From Rhododendron vialii (taxonomy: Eukaryota > Streptophyta > Magnoliopsida > Ericales > Ericaceae), in NCBI RefSeq assembly GCF_030253575.1, contig NC_080559.1, positions 33,537,501 to 33,601,500 on the forward strand: a DNA stretch of 64,000 nt, written 5' to 3'. The notes beneath the pieces are model-generated. The model saw only the letters and a list, made by a program, of their open reading frames with translations, did not search any database and was not told the DNA's origin. This document shows, one piece after another, positions 2,282 to 11,596 of the stretch; the first letter of the stretch is position 1, and each line of letters starts with the position of its first letter. The position numbers were made by a program, and so were the translations under genes.

Positions 2282-5195
2282 ATGCAGGTCCAGGGAAAAA
2301 CACACTCCCTCTCCACAGACATGAACGCCAGACTCGTAGGCTCCGGAAGCGGCACCGTCGTCCTCGCGCACGGGTACGGAACGGACCAGTCGTTGTGGGA
2401 CAAAATCCTGCCCGACCTGGCCCGGCGCCACCGGGTTCTGGCGTTCGACTGGATCTTCTCGGGCGCCGTGAAGGATCCGGACATGTTCGACCCGGTTAAG
2501 TACTCTTCGTTTGATGCCTTTGCCGATGACTTGATTGCCCTCATGGAGGAAGTGAAGCTGGGGCCGTCCGTGTTTGTAGGGCACTCCATGTCGGGCATGA
2601 TTGGATGTATTGCTTCCATTAAAAGACCTGAGCTTTTCAAGAGGATTGTTCTCATTGGAGCTTCACCCAGGTATATATAATGATGAGATTAGCTTCACCC
2701 AGGTATATATAATGATGAGATTGTCTTATTCACGAAGCAACCATGAATAAGACATTCACGGAGGCATGCGATATGGACTGTCCGTTCCGGCTTTGGATGA
2801 TCCGGATTTAAATAAAATATCTTCCCTAGAAAAAGTTTTATTTAAATCCGGACAGTCCAAAGCCAGAACGAACGCACGCGATTCACCTCCGTAAACCCCT
2901 GAATAGGAAAGCTCCGTTAAATTTTTTTTTCCATATATAATATATGCATATTGTTTGGGTACATCAGAAATTATATATAAATATATTCATCCCCATAGGA
3001 AAAGTCTTCAATACACATCCTTTCAAGGTGTATACCATATGCACCTATTGTGTGGTTCATATTGTGCCACTTCATAAAAATTTACTTGTAGGACCGGTCA
3101 TTCATAACATTTTATTTCGTATCGTAACTTTTATACTAAAAATTCGTAACTTTTATACTAAAAATTCGTAACTTTTCAACAATATGATTTGTAACTTTTT
3201 AGCAATAGATTCGTAACATTTTGGGATTCATAACATTTTAGTGTATTTTAACGAGGGTGCATATGATACACACCTAAATAAGGGGTGTGTATTGTAGCAC
3301 TTCCCATATTCATAAGGGATATATACATCTATGTGTGGAGATTCTTTGTATAAATTAAGGGGCTCAAGAGTAGCGGACACAGAAATTTCTCAAAAAGTGG
3401 CACGAAATACAAAACTATTTGAAGTGTGGAGAGATCATGGTAAAATAAATTAAATTTTCAAAGGGTGAAACTGAAATTCTTAATGCCTTGTTTGGATGAT
3501 GTTTTAAAAAATTGAGTTTGATTTTTGGGTAATGAGTGGAGGGAGAAAATATGGGTAATGAGTGAAGAGAAATGAGAATGATGATTGGAGAGATGAAAGA
3601 GAAATAAGAGTAATAATTGAAAGTAGGAATAATGAGTATTTTTTGAATTGAATTTTTTTTTTCTCCAACTGCCATCCAAACAAGGCATAAATTTTGAAGG
3701 CACCAAAACAATAGAGTACATTATTCTAAGTATTGAAATGGAGACTAAAAAATTGAAGCTATACCATATACCAGAGTTTGGAGTGTCGTAGCCCCCCCGG
3801 CTGCATCACCTCATCCATCTCTGGGGATGGAGGGTCGAGTTTGAAAATTCTGTTCTATGTATTGTGTACTATGTCGTGGACGAATTTTGAATGCAACACA
3901 AATGGTTTATGTATTTTGTGTGTTGTAACTTAGAGAAACATGTCGATACGACATCGATATCATGACTTTCTACAACAAATTTTGTTAATTTGAGTAGTAG
4001 TACTATAATTCAAGTATTGGTCCAAGATATACGAAATAAGCAAATACTCCTAGTCAAACATAAGTACTACATGCAGTACTAATTAGTATATGAGGGTAAT
4101 TAAGAGCTATCAACCGGCCTAAAAAATCAAACCGAATTAAGGACGTGATTCCATGTGCCTTATCTCTAGCTGGGCTTTCACGGTCCCCACATGGTTATGG
4201 GAGATTGTAGGATAGTAAGAGAATCTGGTTTTGAACTAAAGCTCAAGAACGGCCGCTTTATGCCGCCAAAGATTTTACTAATTTTAGGGCCACTCTTCTT
4301 TGGTGCTACCCTTACAATAGCACGACAAAAAGAGCCTCATTAGTAATTTTCGTTTTAGGCCCCTAAAAAGTCAATATCGGCTGTAAAGATAGATCATTCG
4401 AAAAAGGGAAAAAAAAAAAAACCAAAAATGGATAGATCATGGGGAGTGATTTTTGTACTTTTCAAATTGATTTTGGCACTCTCAAAGGGAAATGCTGTTA
4501 TCAATTTGAAGAGTGTCAAAATCAATTCCCTAGATCATAGTCAGAACTAGGGCCTTGTTTGGTAAACTAACTGTTGCAATTGGCAACTGCATAGTACTGT
4601 TCATCTATTGGACCCGCATGGGACCCGTATATTTTATCTGTCACCGTCGCACTGGATGGTTTGAACACGTCTGTGCTCATTGTGAGTGCGTAAACTATAT
4701 GCCGAGACTTTCAGGCCGCTTTTCGAATTAACCAAAAAAATTTCCTCATGGATAATCAGGTACATAAATTCTGAAGACTATGAAGGGGGATTTGACATCT
4801 CAGAGGTTGAACAACTCTTGTCAAGCATTGAATCCGACTTCCACAGCTGGGCCTCCAGTTTTGCCCCACTTGTCATGGACCCAAACGACCCTCCCTCCGT
4901 CACCAAGTTCGAGACTTGCCTCAAGAGAATGAGGCCAGAAACTGCTCTCTCGGTCGCCAAACTCATTTTCCTGGGCGACCAGAGGGACATGCTGGAGAAG
5001 GTGACGGTCCCGTGCACCTTCGTCCAGACCACCAACGATATTGTGGTCCCGAATTCCGTTCCCGAGCTCATGGCGAAGAAGATCAAGGGCAAGTCGACGG
5101 TGGAGGTGATAGAGATAGATGGCCATTTCCCCCAGCTGACCGCTCACCTCCAGCTCCTAGAGGTGTTGCGCGATGTTCCGGATTTCGATCTCTGA
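2282..5195 (+). CDS. DLK2: DLK2-like alpha/beta hydrolase (D14/KAI2 family)
   Basis: Two exons, 2282-2670 and 4760-5195, encode 274 residues. This is an alpha/beta hydrolase of the strigolactone/karrikin receptor family (D14, KAI2, DLK2). The sequence fits DLK2 better than D14 or KAI2, with DWIFSGAVKD and SEDYEGGF present. The catalytic triad is intact: Ser102 in GHSMSG, Asp223 in TTNDIVVP and His252 in DGHFPQL. The intron (2671-4759) splits the Arg130 codon as AG|G, giving SPR-YINSED, the usual position in this family. Length is normal (family about 265-275). DLK2 is a paralogue whose transcript in Arabidopsis responds to strigolactone and karrikin-pathway signalling; its ligand is less certain. 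The start is the first ATG after the leader. The donor is copied 32 bp downstream (see repeat), and use of the copy would stop translation after 132 residues. Confidence 0.93.
2659..2722 (+). repeat. 32-bp tandem duplication containing the splice donor
   Basis: Bases 2659-2690 are repeated exactly at 2691-2722. The unit spans the last 12 bases of DLK2 exon 1, the GT donor and 20 intron bases, so a second identical donor sits at 2703. Splicing at the second copy retains 32 bases and reads AGG TAT ATA TAA, a premature stop. Confidence 0.95.
2751..2897. repeat. Imperfect foldback in DLK2 intron
   Basis: The core arms pair GGCTTTGGATGATCCGGATT (from 2789) with the inverse of a segment reading AATCCGGACAGTCCAAAGCC, around a short AT-rich loop near 2818-2833. 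Weaker complementarity extends to CACGGAGG and CCTCCGT on the outside. It looks like a small decayed MITE. Confidence 0.6.
3123..3188 (+). repeat. 22-bp tandem repeat in DLK2 intron
   Basis: Two full and one partial copy of a 22-base unit starting CGTAACTTTTATACTAAAAA occur at 3123, 3145 and 3167. Further diverged CGTAAC copies continue to about 3235. No function is suggested. Confidence 0.8.
3484..3687. mobile_element. Tourist-like (PIF/Harbinger) MITE in DLK2 intron
   Basis: Terminal inverted repeats TGCCTTGTTTGGAT and ATCCAAACAAGGCA bound a 204-bp non-coding element. Both sides carry TAA (3481-3483 and 3688-3690), the 3-bp target duplication of PIF/Harbinger elements. Confidence 0.8.
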
Positions 5196-5771
5196 TTTCG
5201 AAAGCAAAGTAGAAATTACCGATGGTTCGGAAACCAACGGCTTGCAATATCGCATGGTTGTTAGGGTTCCTGAATCATTGAGCAATTTCTCAAAGTAGAC
5301 GAATTAGTAGTTGTAGTTATTTGTTTTTTCTTCTTTATTTTTGTATTTTTCTTGGTCCTTTTTTTGTATTTGTGACTTCTTTGGGATGATGACTATGGGG
5401 AATGGTTGTTATGTACTAGAGTGCTAGGTTTTGTGGGTGTTTAATAGTAGTCTGTAGCTTATTCCAAGTAAGATTTGCAAGAGCTATTGTGGACATATGG
5501 AACTTGGTGTCCAAATAGAGATATTGTTTGTTTGGCTTATATATATGTTAATTGTCGAATGTTCTTTTAATTAGGCTCCATTCTGCTAAGGTTCTTATTT
5601 TTTTAATATTTATTTTTTACTTTACGAGAGAAGTCATTCTCTCACACAATGCATCACTTTTAATTCAAAAAATAAGTACTTATTTGATATTTTAGTTAGT
5701 GAAATTTCATTTTACAATTAACAAGGTTAACTTTCGCTGAGGGAAAAAAATTGTAAGGGAAAATGAAAGCC

Positions 5772-6694: not shown

Positions 6695-7068
6695 ATGCGA
6701 AGTCTGTTTGGTGCTTCTTCTCAGCTCCTGAGCCGATCCTTCACTCACTACTTCTTCCCCAACACTAGTCGGAGTCACTCTCTCTCTAAGCATCGTCACC
6801 ATTTCTGCAATTTCTCTCTCCAAAACACCTCCCGATCTCTTCGAACATTCGCGATCATGGCCGCCACTGAGGAGCTCGTCAAGGGCAGTGTCCTCCCCAA
6901 CGGCGTCGCTCTCATCACTCTCGACCGCCCCAAAGCCCTCAACGCCATGAACCTAGGTCTCTCTCTCTCTCTCACTGTCTGCATATCTATGAATGCGTAG
7001 GCACTTCAATCGAATCAGTGAATTAGTTGTTGCTGATGTAAATTGGTTGAAGTACAGCTTCGATCATC

Positions 7069-7129
<61 letters not shown>

Positions 7130-10100
7130 ATATGTATGTATGCGTAGCCAATTCAGTAGAATAGGTGAATTAGTTGTTGAAGGAAAACTTGGTTGAAGTA
7201 CAGTTTTGATGATCTGATTAAGTTATTATAGACGGTTGTGGTTAAAATTTTGCAACGGAAAATGAACTTTGAGTTATATTTGTTTTTTCGTGTTTTAATT
7301 TTAGTAGGTGCTAAGGTAATTTGGTGCATTTTGCTCGACTTCTCCACCTTATCTTCTCTCCATACTCGTACACACGCGCACTAATTCACACGCTAATAGT
7401 TATGTGAAGATTGAGCACATACGGAAGATTTGAGTCCTAGTAATTTGCGTGATACAAAATTGTGGTTGATGGCACACTTGAACGTTTAAATGTCAGGATT
7501 AGAACTGTGAATCAGCCTAACTTTGGGGTTAATGTGTATTTCACTTTCTTTTCTTTTCTTTTTGTGTGATTCTTTGCTCTTGCATTTTGCATCTGATTGT
7601 ACTGAATGGTATGCCGCTACCCTGCAGACATGGATATCAAGTACAAAAGTTTTCTTGACGAGTGGGAAGTGGATCCTAACGTGAAATGTGTTCTAGTTGA
7701 GAGCAGTTCACCTCGTGCCTTTTCAGCAGGTGACAATAAGAATAAATGGGATTACTCCTTTAAGCCTTTTGTTTCATTCAAAATCGTTTTAGAGTGAACC
7801 TCTTAATTTGCTTTAATCCATCTTTGTTGAATGTTGGGGTTTATTTGGAGTGTTATGTGTGGTTTTGAGGGTAACCACTCATGGCCAATGCAGGAATGGA
7901 TATTAAGGGAGTTGTTGCTGAAATTCAAAAGGAAAAAACTACACCTCTTGTCCAGAAGGTTTTTTAAGATAATTCAATTTTTTTCCTGCTTCATGTGTCT
8001 GTCTTGTATGGGTTAATTCTTGTTTATTCTTGTTGTTGCTGTTCTATGAATGGCCCTGTTTCATATTTGGTTTTGGTTGTTTCATCCGCGTTTTATTTTT
8101 ATAATTTGCGGAATTGGTGTTTCTAGTGAGATTTAGTCAATGCTTGCCTAATTGATAACCCAAGTCTTAGTTCATCTGCAGGTGGTGATGTGAAGCAGAT
8201 CACGACCAAAAACCAACTGTCAGATATGATTGAGGTTTTTTTTGTGTTCTTTTAACTTAGTATTGGCAAATTCAGCATACGCACCTCACTAAGTTCAACC
8301 TATGGCAGATAACGCAACTTATTATTTGCAATGATATTATAACTCTTAGTTTAGAATGATGATTTCAACCACTGACCCACCCATTCTCCGACTACACCAG
8401 TTTGTCTCATTTATACAGCCTTTGATCTGTGGTGGTTCACACAAGTTCATATTCCAATAAAGATATCAGAAGCATTTATACCCCTCATTCACTTTTAAAA
8501 AATGTGATCTTACAGAATAGAGAGAATACTGAACAAAGTGGTCCCTATTAAAGTGGAATTTCTAAATTATATGAAAATTTTCACTCATTAACAAGTATGA
8601 ATCATCTTGTAAGCGTAAATGTCAGTTGTATAATACAGTTGACACAGGTCTCAGGCACCAAGTACCAGACATGCAAGTCATCACGGGGCAAGATACTTTG
8701 AATGGGATAGATATCGCAAATTATGCATGTTTGTGCTCCACAGTGCATATTTGCTCTTAATTAGTTTTAGTTATTTGCAAGAATCTGGTACAAGACAATT
8801 TGATGACTCCTGGGATGTGATTGTTGCTTCTGTTAATATCATTTTCCCTCATCAGGGCATGAATTTGCTGTTTCATTTTGCAATTGTGATACTTAATTTT
8901 GAAGCACCATTTTACTGTATTTGGTTGCTCATTTTACAGTATTTGGACGCTCATGTGATTCATTTTTAAAGGATGCTTATATCAGTCAATAGTCTTTGCA
9001 CCGGATGGATAAAATAGCACTTTCACTTTAGCTATCGCATGCAGCAAATATTACGTGATTGTTTACTATACTCAGTTTTCTAATTTCGTGTCTACAATGT
9101 TTGCTAAAGTCTAGTGCTTATGATGCCAAATTGTTTGGCAGGTATTTACTGCAGAATATTCTCTAATATGTAAAATTCACGAATACCAAAAGCCTTATAT
9201 ATGCTTCATGGATGGTATAACAATGGGCTTTGGAATTGGCCTATCTGGTCATGGTCGCTACCGGCTCATTACTGAGGTTATTACCTTCCCTATCAGATAT
9301 GATTCATTTTATAGCTAAAAACACTATGGAAGCGAGTCATTTACATGCACAAGTTTATTGCAGAGGACGATGCTTGCTATGCCAGAAAATGGGATTGGCC
9401 TATTCCCAGATGTGGGATTTGCTTATATAGCAGCACAAACTCCCGGAGAAGGATCAGTTGGTAGTGTTTCTATCCCTTAGAAAGTTCAGTTGGGTTTGCT
9501 GGAGGGAATGTTTTATGATGTTATCTTTCTCTTGTTTGTTCGTTAAAGGTTTCTGGTATCAACTTTAAATTTACATGAATATTTTCATTTGTCTGCTCTC
9601 TGTCTTAGTATTTATGCATTCAAGACAGTTGATTTCCCTGTGTCATGGATTTTTGTAGCCTTGATGTAGGTAGTTGTTGTCCTATGTTTTCTGTTTTTTT
9701 CAAATTAGTATAACAAGTTTGTGTTTCTGCAGGTGCGTATCTTGGAATGACTGGAAAAAGGATTTCTACACCTGCTGATGCACTATACGTAGGTCTTGGA
9801 ACACATTACATACCATCTGGGAACTTGGGTTCATTGAAGGAGGCGCTCTTGGCAACCACCTTGTATATATCTCATATCATCCTTCAGTTGATAATGAGTA
9901 TCTGTGTTTCGGTGGAACTGAACTGTTTGTGTTTTATCAGAATTGTCATATCAGGAGTGGGAAAATGATACCCCACTCCTCTTTCCTCAGATACTCCCTT
10001 TCTTGATTTTGGCCTTCTCACAAGTCGAGTGGGAACTTAAAAAATGGAATGAGTCATTCATTAGAATCATTACATACCTTGTGTTTTCAATTGCCTAATG

Positions 10101-11596
10101 TGTTACCGAACCCCATGTTCACTGCCCAATATATTCTACTGAAAACTTAAGTAATGTTCTGTCGTAGTCTTGAAGTGGTCCACTTATTATTTTGTCCAGT
10201 TATTATATGTTCCTAGAGATGGGCTGTGAACATGCATGCGACTTATATTACCGGTTGAGGGAACTTCACACGTGTTGACATCATGTAGAAACATTCTTCT
10301 GCCGGTGGGCTTTTCTGTGCAACTTGAAGAGATGTTTGATGTTTCCATCTATTTACATCATCTTATTGCCATATGTTTCGTGTTTGTACAGTTCTGACGA
10401 TCCAAATGAGGACATCAGTGCACTATTGGCAAAATACAGCAGTAACCCCGAGTCTGAGCCCCAGCTGAAGTTGCTTTTACCTCTTATAGCTTCATCCTTT
10501 GGTGGAAACAAATCTGTTAATGAAACAATACAAGAGCTGAAAAAACACCAGCTGAGCACTGATGCCACAGGTGATGTACTAAATGCTAGATGTCTACCAA
10601 ATATCTGCGAAGGTTGTAGTTTGTTTAGTGTAACTTATTTCTATTTATGCATAAGCATAGTTTAGCCGGCTATTTGGTTACTTTCTTTCCTCTATCTTTA
10701 GTGGTCATTACTGATAGTCCCAGTTTCTATGAGCAGTGACAGAGTGGGCCAAGGAGGCCCTTACAGGGCTTGGAAAAGGTGCCCCCTTTTCTCTCAGCTT
10801 GACAAAAGAACATTTCTATAGAGTGGCATCCGCACGCGCAAATAATGACAATGCTTTATCCAGTGTGAGTCGGGAGTTTGAATTTTCATTCACTTCTGAA
10901 CAAGCCTTTATGATCGATGACCATTAACATTTGGTCTTTTTCTGCATTTGGTGTACCCAGTTAAGTGGCGTAATGAAAACTGAATATCGAATTGCTTTAA
11001 GGTCCTCCCTCCGAAATGATTTTGCTGAAGGTGTTCGTGCAGTCTTGGTGGACAAGGATCAGGTTTGTTCTTAACTCCTGCTAGTTTCTTTAACTAGGTT
11101 TTACCTCTTTGATGGAAGCCTGTTCTTTGTCTTTCACTTAATTTTGTGGATTTGAATTTTCAAAGAAAAAAATGGAAACTCGGCATTATCTTTTTGGGAA
11201 AAAGGTTATGCAGTTTTTGTATTTTTCGGAAACTGTTCTGGCAAAAAGAAAAAGTAGACAATTGTTTTTATTCTCGAAAACACAAAATGGTGAAAACTAA
11301 AAGTGAAAACCACAACCTGACTTTGAACTAGTCTGCACGTATGTTGTGAACTTAGATCTGTCGATTAGAGATGGAATGGCTGTTCTGTTTGAAATGATGT
11401 TCTCTTTCATCATTTTCTTGAACATTTTTTGTTAGATCGTTCAGATGTTTTAACAGCCTTTTCTCATTGCTGTTCTGGTTTATGTCATTTGCAGAACCCT
11501 AAGTGGAACCCCCCAAGTCTCGAGGATGTTAACCCAAGAGAGGTGGAAGCGCTCTTCGAACCACTGGCCCCCCAAGTTGAGGAACTGAAAGTTTGA
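6695..11596 (+). CDS. 3-hydroxyisobutyryl-CoA hydrolase-like protein, mitochondrial
   Basis: Exons: 6695-6956, 7628-7729, 7894-7958 or 8182-8234 (alternatives), 9142-9276, 9364-9460, 9733-9862, 10392-10570, 10737-10864, 10961-11062, 11495-11596. The product has 433 residues with the first alternative and 429 with the second. It is a crotonase-fold protein of the HIBCH-like class, expected to act on a CoA thioester in valine/branched-chain catabolism. The N-terminus (about 55 residues, rich in Ser, Arg and aromatics, few acids) looks like a mitochondrial presequence. A second in-frame ATG at residue 55 (MAATEEL) begins the mature-like part. Landmarks are [11 protein letters not shown] (about 76-86), oxyanion-hole segment AFSAG-D-K (about 118-126), GITMGFG, and [13 protein letters not shown] with Glu196 and Asp204 in the catalytic positions. 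The end ELKV is not a peroxisomal PTS1. The exon 1 donor is weak (GTCTCT) and runs into CT repeats. Confidence 0.93.
7073..7127 (+). repeat. (CT)n microsatellite in HIBCH-like intron 1
   Basis: Uninterrupted CT dinucleotide run of about 55 bases inside intron 1. A shorter CT run already begins at the exon 1 donor (6957). Confidence 0.95.
7894..7958 (+). other. Alternative exon 3a of HIBCH-like gene
   Basis: This 65-bp exon is bounded by CAG and GT. It enters in phase 1 and leaves in phase 0, encoding [12 protein letters not shown]...PLVQK (22 residues counting the split Gly). It completes the oxyanion segment as AFSAG-MDIK. It can replace exon 3b without a frame change but cannot be joined to it. 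Confidence 0.85.
8182..8234 (+). other. Alternative exon 3b of HIBCH-like gene
   Basis: This 53-bp exon has the same entry and exit phases as 3a and encodes [18 protein letters not shown] (18 residues). It completes the same segment as AFSAG-GDVK. Joining 3a to 3b reads GTG GTG ATG TGA. Skipping both reads through to TAA within exon 4. Only one of the two can be used in a productive mRNA. Confidence 0.85.

Follow-up and report, generated by a model that had tools for sequence, protein, structure and literature searches.

A HIBCH-like gene of Rhododendron vialii carries an alternative exon pair at its oxyanion-hole segment and is probably a further copy of a conserved plant arrangement

A HIBCH-like gene (PF16113) of Rhododendron vialii, located on the + strand at positions 6695-11596 of the 64,000-nucleotide stretch of plant-type nuclear DNA analysed here (the window; contig positions 33537501-33601500), contains two adjacent alternative exons, of which either one alone gives a full-length protein. 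With a probability of roughly 90%, this gene is the orthologue of Arabidopsis At3g24360, rice LOC_Os06g39344 and Medicago AC145449_47, and carries the conserved either/or pair that gives two oxyanion-loop versions of one enzyme. We infer the orthology from gene anatomy, family membership and the published description of the Medicago gene in part of Wang et al. 2008 (PMC2277414), because the exon number, the exon order, both exon lengths and the difference of four amino acids agree with the published gene. The exon pair as such is thus already in the literature and, as far as the relevant part of that paper goes, the R. vialii gene adds one more instance to an arrangement known to be conserved.

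Eleven exons were recognized on the + strand when the two alternative exons, 3A and 3B, were counted separately. Exon 1 (6695..6956), delimited by joining of its open frame, has the donor TAG/gtctct and offers two candidate starts, the first in-frame ATG at 6695 and the second at 6857. The intron behind it harbours a long CT microsatellite at about 7071-7127 of the window. Exon 2 (7628..7729) ends with ...PRAFSAG in phase 1, as read from the spliced frame, and is followed by 3A (7894..7958; 65 nt, AGMD form) and 3B (8182..8234; 53 nt, AGGD form), both of which were identified by their reading frame together with the chance control described below. A tandem 22-nt direct repeat is present at 8908-8951 in the intron before exon 4, its copies being 86% identical. 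The constitutive exon 4 (9142..9276; VFTAEYSL...LITE) was placed by the spliced frame and by alignment to human HIBCH (3bpt), and exon 5 (9364..9460), which contributes the same conserved acidic residues to forms A and B, was likewise supported by the spliced frame and alignment with human HIBCH. The spliced frame also yielded exons 6 (9733..9862), 7 (10392..10570), 8 (10743..10864), 9 (10961..11062) and 10 (11495..11596), the last of which holds the stop codon.

The original prediction held that the gene must use one exon or the other, and splicing in silico confirmed this logic; the coordinates and the lengths of 65 and 53 nt were as claimed, and so were the AG/GT borders and the phases of both exons (1 at entry, 0 at exit). 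When the other nine exons were joined from the ATG at 6695, inclusion of 3A gave a protein of 431 aa and inclusion of 3B one of 427 aa, neither being interrupted by a stop. The two forms hence differ, as had been proposed, by four residues and in Met (AGMD) versus Gly (AGGD). Joining of 3A and 3B brings a TGA at 8191-8193 (+ strand) into frame and ends the product after 146 aa, and omission of both exons leads to a TAA at 9171-9173 (+ strand) and a product of 131 aa. Because both of these combinations carry early stops, the reading frame itself would remove such splicing mistakes. An old exon duplication, suggested earlier as the origin of the pair, was not demonstrated; the only similarity between the 3A and 3B peptides is G-x-D-[IV]-K plus one stray residue. 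Another likeness was seen between the starts of exon 2 (7623-7641) and 3A (7889-7907), which, acceptors included, share 84% identity across 19 nt (TGCAGACATGGATATCAAG and TGCAGGAATGGATATTAAG) and in both of which MDIK comes right after the junction; this resemblance may be a coincidence.

The chance occurrence of such exons was estimated for the 1412 nt between exons 2 and 4 (7730-9141), using 2000 dinucleotide shuffles and counting AG...GT segments of 30-120 nt with a length of 2 modulo 3, open in phase and starting with G-x-D-[ILV]. The real sequence contains exactly two qualifying acceptors, those of 3A and 3B, each with one alternative GT. In the shuffles the mean was 0.03 qualifying acceptors, two or more were found in 1 of 2000, and none of the 2000 had two acceptors with the stricter G-x-D-[IV]-K. 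The two motif-bearing open segments are therefore not due to chance.

Membership of the gene product in the HIBCH family follows from the full-length scores of both forms, which lie above the curated cut-offs. For this scoring the spliced proteins were read from the second ATG at 6857 (373 aa for form B, 377 aa for form A), and matched PF16113 with 352.5 bits (form B) and 352.0 bits (form A) at a cut-off of 27.2. The NCBIfam model NF004127 (3-hydroxyisobutyryl-CoA hydrolase) gave 316.5 and 315.2 bits for the two forms (cut-off 274), and human HIBCH (3bpt) was the top match among solved sequences for both, with 199.6 and 199.4 bits. Family resemblance to the human enzyme extends across almost the entire chain, and the human AGxD, GITMG, MPE and FPD stretches align with those of the R. 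vialii protein; the human enzyme differs in having a single AGGD form, where the R. vialii gene can encode AGGD or AGMD. In these alignments the swapped stretch is two residues longer than the human one in form A and two residues shorter in form B, so the human length falls between the two forms. The acidic residues of MPE and FPD, present after the GITMG stretch and aligned to human HIBCH, are those we take to be catalytic in HIBCH-type enzymes.

In crotonases one half of the oxyanion hole is the backbone NH of residue x in AGxD, and in rat enoyl-CoA hydratase the oxyanion-hole residues are Ala98 and Gly141. The swapped segment of the R. vialii gene starts within this AGxD motif, and the residue that varies between 3A and 3B is its x residue; the earlier assignment of the exons to the oxyanion-hole segment thus fits the family. 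Leu71 is, we infer, the x residue of AGxD. Exon 4 is expected to carry the second oxyanion Gly, and the wordings of the Arabidopsis exons presumably match those of 3A and 3B.

When the x residue was compared among bacterial HIBCH-type loci, Gly was found in 14/15, Ala in one (AGAD) and Met in none. These 15 loci comprise those listed matches that score higher than the cut-off of NF004127, three from a set of 10 genomes and 12 from a set of 56 (65 genomes in all, one being common to both sets); the larger set covers E values up to 1e-90 only, a limit that would leave out weaker members above the cut-off, and two of the 15 loci have one internal stop. Printed alignments of solved HIBCH-type sequences gave Gly in six of seven distinct sequences and Ala in the seventh, where the seven come from nine HIBCH-type entries without 3ju1 and 6xyw, and two of them look like the same yeast-type protein. 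AGMD was accordingly absent from the 15 listed bacterial loci and the seven solved sequences, and, judged from these sequences, AGGD of form B is the family-typical motif. More variation was seen among 43 crotonase-like loci chosen less strictly (15 + 28): 28 of the 43 yielded a crude motif, with 13 Ala, 10 Gly, 2 Ile, 2 Met and 1 Cys, and the remaining 15 gave no motif. The two Met-bearing loci look near-identical, at least one locus of the set (L039) matched a neighbouring gene, and 15 of the 43, mostly distant crotonases, came from a contig scan with two N-terminal peptide patterns that has no bearing on plants.

The proposal that the two exons are mutually exclusive was borne out by transcripts of homologues with identical exon lengths and order. 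In the part of Wang et al. 2008 (PMC2277414) concerned, AC145449_47 is described as an 11-exon enoyl-CoA hydratase/isomerase gene of Medicago in which Exon3, of 65 nt, and Exon4, of 53 nt, exclude each other and give proteins of 418 and 414 aa. Four named ESTs contain Exon3 only (two from Medicago, one from Lotus and one from lupine) and five contain Exon4 only (four from Medicago and one from Lotus); within this account no EST holds both exons, and one Medicago EST is without either (PMC2277414). Because this EST skips both exons, splicing does not impose the choice without exception. The same either/or pattern is given in that part of the paper for Lotus LjTC_2465, rice LOC_Os06g39344 and Arabidopsis At3g24360 (PMC2277414). 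At4g13360, counted with the closest homologues, carries just the 65-nt exon, with no trace of the 53-nt exon in the description consulted (PMC2277414); not every gene of the clade thus requires the 53-nt exon.

The R. vialii gene and AC145449_47, as the latter is described in that part of the paper, have in common the number and order of exons, with a 65-nt and then a 53-nt exon as the third and fourth of 11, both exon lengths, the difference of four amino acids and, presumably, the either/or use. They differ in the size of the proteins, the R. vialii model being 13 aa longer (431/427 versus 418/414 aa), and in that the Medicago gene is known from ESTs and the R. vialii pair from DNA alone. 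With At4g13360 the R. vialii gene shares the 65-nt exon and differs in the 53-nt exon, which that gene is described as lacking. As the published transcripts are those of homologues and not of R. vialii, the either/or reading holds here by orthology. The presence of the pair in legumes, Arabidopsis, rice and R. vialii indicates long-term retention.

According to the mechanism that we propose, the spliceosome would take in one of the two alternative exons, 3A or 3B, after exon 2 and before continuing with exon 4, direct joining of 3A to 3B being disfavoured. Products containing both exons or neither would stop early and would probably be removed by nonsense-mediated decay. The two remaining mRNAs would give one hydrolase-type crotonase in two forms that differ in the first oxyanion-hole loop and in the residues that follow it, form A having AGMD and four more residues and form B having AGGD. 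The most likely effect would be that the two forms differ in acyl-CoA preference or turnover.

Alternatively, splicing in R. vialii could have ceased to include one of the exons, which would then be a relic, only a single form being made. At4g13360, a gene of the same clade, manages without the 53-nt exon (as described in part of PMC2277414), and the acceptor of 3A, with 18% T, has the lowest T content among the ten acceptors of the gene. Drift would be expected in a relic, however, and both exons keep an open frame, their borders, the published lengths and the motif; moreover, their donors match the consensus at 5/9 positions each, compared with 4-7/9 for the other eight donors of the gene. 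We consider this possibility quite unlikely. The same donor scores, lying within the range of the other donors, do not support exceptionally weak donors of 3A and 3B. Steric exclusion by a very short intron was likewise rejected as the sole cause of the either/or use, since the 3A-3B intron measures 223 nt and crowding would be insufficient to block the joining of 3A to 3B.

The two exons might also have been partitioned between paralogues, the present locus being one of several differently spliced copies. Such a partition, envisaged in the original prediction, holds in part of Arabidopsis, where At4g13360 has the 65-nt exon only (PMC2277414, in the part concerned), but was not visible in the R. 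vialii genome. The whole assembly (532.6 Mb, 13 contigs) was searched by exon-by-exon reading with scoring of the best candidates, the query being the N-terminal 129 aa of a draft of form B in which the junction of exons 1 and 2 was misread (MNHMDIK for MNLDMDIK). Five places were found among the best candidates, four of them within this gene and the fifth only 29% identical with an E value of 0.005; there was no second gene of this type among the best candidates obtained with this N-terminal query. In eight other regions that match ECH_2 (L009-L016), the peptides of 3A and 3B matched only the AGxD region or matched weakly, with E values above 0.3. For the R. vialii genome, the genome search and this comparison lead us to reject the partition between paralogues, which we regard as highly improbable.

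In L009, L010 and L011 the frame continues through AGGD with no intron at the split position, and the intron that splits AGxD is therefore not common to these paralogues. The cassette is made possible by this split within AGxD, which is not shared with the three. In L009, an HIBCH-type paralogue, the FPD region at about 5143-5220 reads TPEASIGHHTDCG, the usual Phe-Pro before Asp being changed.

How the choice between 3A and 3B might be made was approached by RNA folding. The predicted fold of 7720-8250 was more stable than that of shuffled sequences (z -3.27 and -4.05 in two runs), and the subregions 7759-8010 (z -0.9) and 7959-8181 (z -0.31) were not. The extra stability is likely due to a predicted pairing of 26 bp, G-U pairs allowed, with a duplex energy of -27.5 kcal/mol, between two candidate arms on the + strand, one covering the last nucleotides of exon 2 together with the adjoining 5' splice site (7724..7752) and the other lying within the 3A-3B intron (8017..8044); this exploratory helix would loop out 3A. 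Its energy was reached by 1/200 shuffled targets, by 2/134 other anchors in the gene and by none of nine other donors. It was the best of 12 site-by-direction tests (0/60 shuffles, the next best being 4/60 and 5/60), and in a plain inverted-repeat test 16/60 shuffles held one as good. Since the helix was picked after inspecting the fold with z -3.27, comes from a single species and is accompanied by an unremarkable inverted-repeat count, it is treated as a lead, and its looping out of 3A is weakly supported by these predictions. That RNA structure governs the choice, with the helix looping out 3A and steering or delaying the donor of exon 2, seems unlikely to us. The arrangement would be like the docking/selector structures of mutually exclusive exons in animals, as described in part of PMC6071210, in that long-range intronic pairing could loop one exon out; it differs from them in that the candidate consists of one helix in one species with weak statistics. 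If true, a plant would exchange the oxyanion loop in a CoA enzyme by means of a docking-type structure resembling those of animals.

To our knowledge, there are few mutually exclusive exons in plants that rewrite the active site of an enzyme. A single gene that makes an AGGD or an AGMD enzyme would offer a natural test of the role of the oxyanion-loop residue in the choice of acyl-CoA. In the literature, as represented by the article parts consulted, we found no comparison of the two enzyme forms. Exon skipping of rice Os06g39344 differs between treated and control samples, the exon being unnamed in the part concerned (PMC6927115), and a knock-out of At3g24360 altered several metabolites, oxylipin-related compounds being up to 11 times higher (PMC6314165, in part). 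The same portions of these two papers hold nothing on the two isoforms, and those of PMC2674458, PMC4419537, PMC3017808 and PMC11276498 nothing on the exon pair.

Upstream of the HIBCH-like gene, another gene on the + strand ends at about 5001-5195, reading ...VVPNSVPELMAKKIKGKSTVEVIEIDGHFPQLTAHLQLLEVLRDVPDFDL-stop. Its end matches the C-terminal part of Pfam Abhydrolase_1 with an E value of 0.0063 and 16.6 bits, below the cut-off of 25.8, and because of this weak match to the end of the family the gene probably encodes an alpha/beta-hydrolase.
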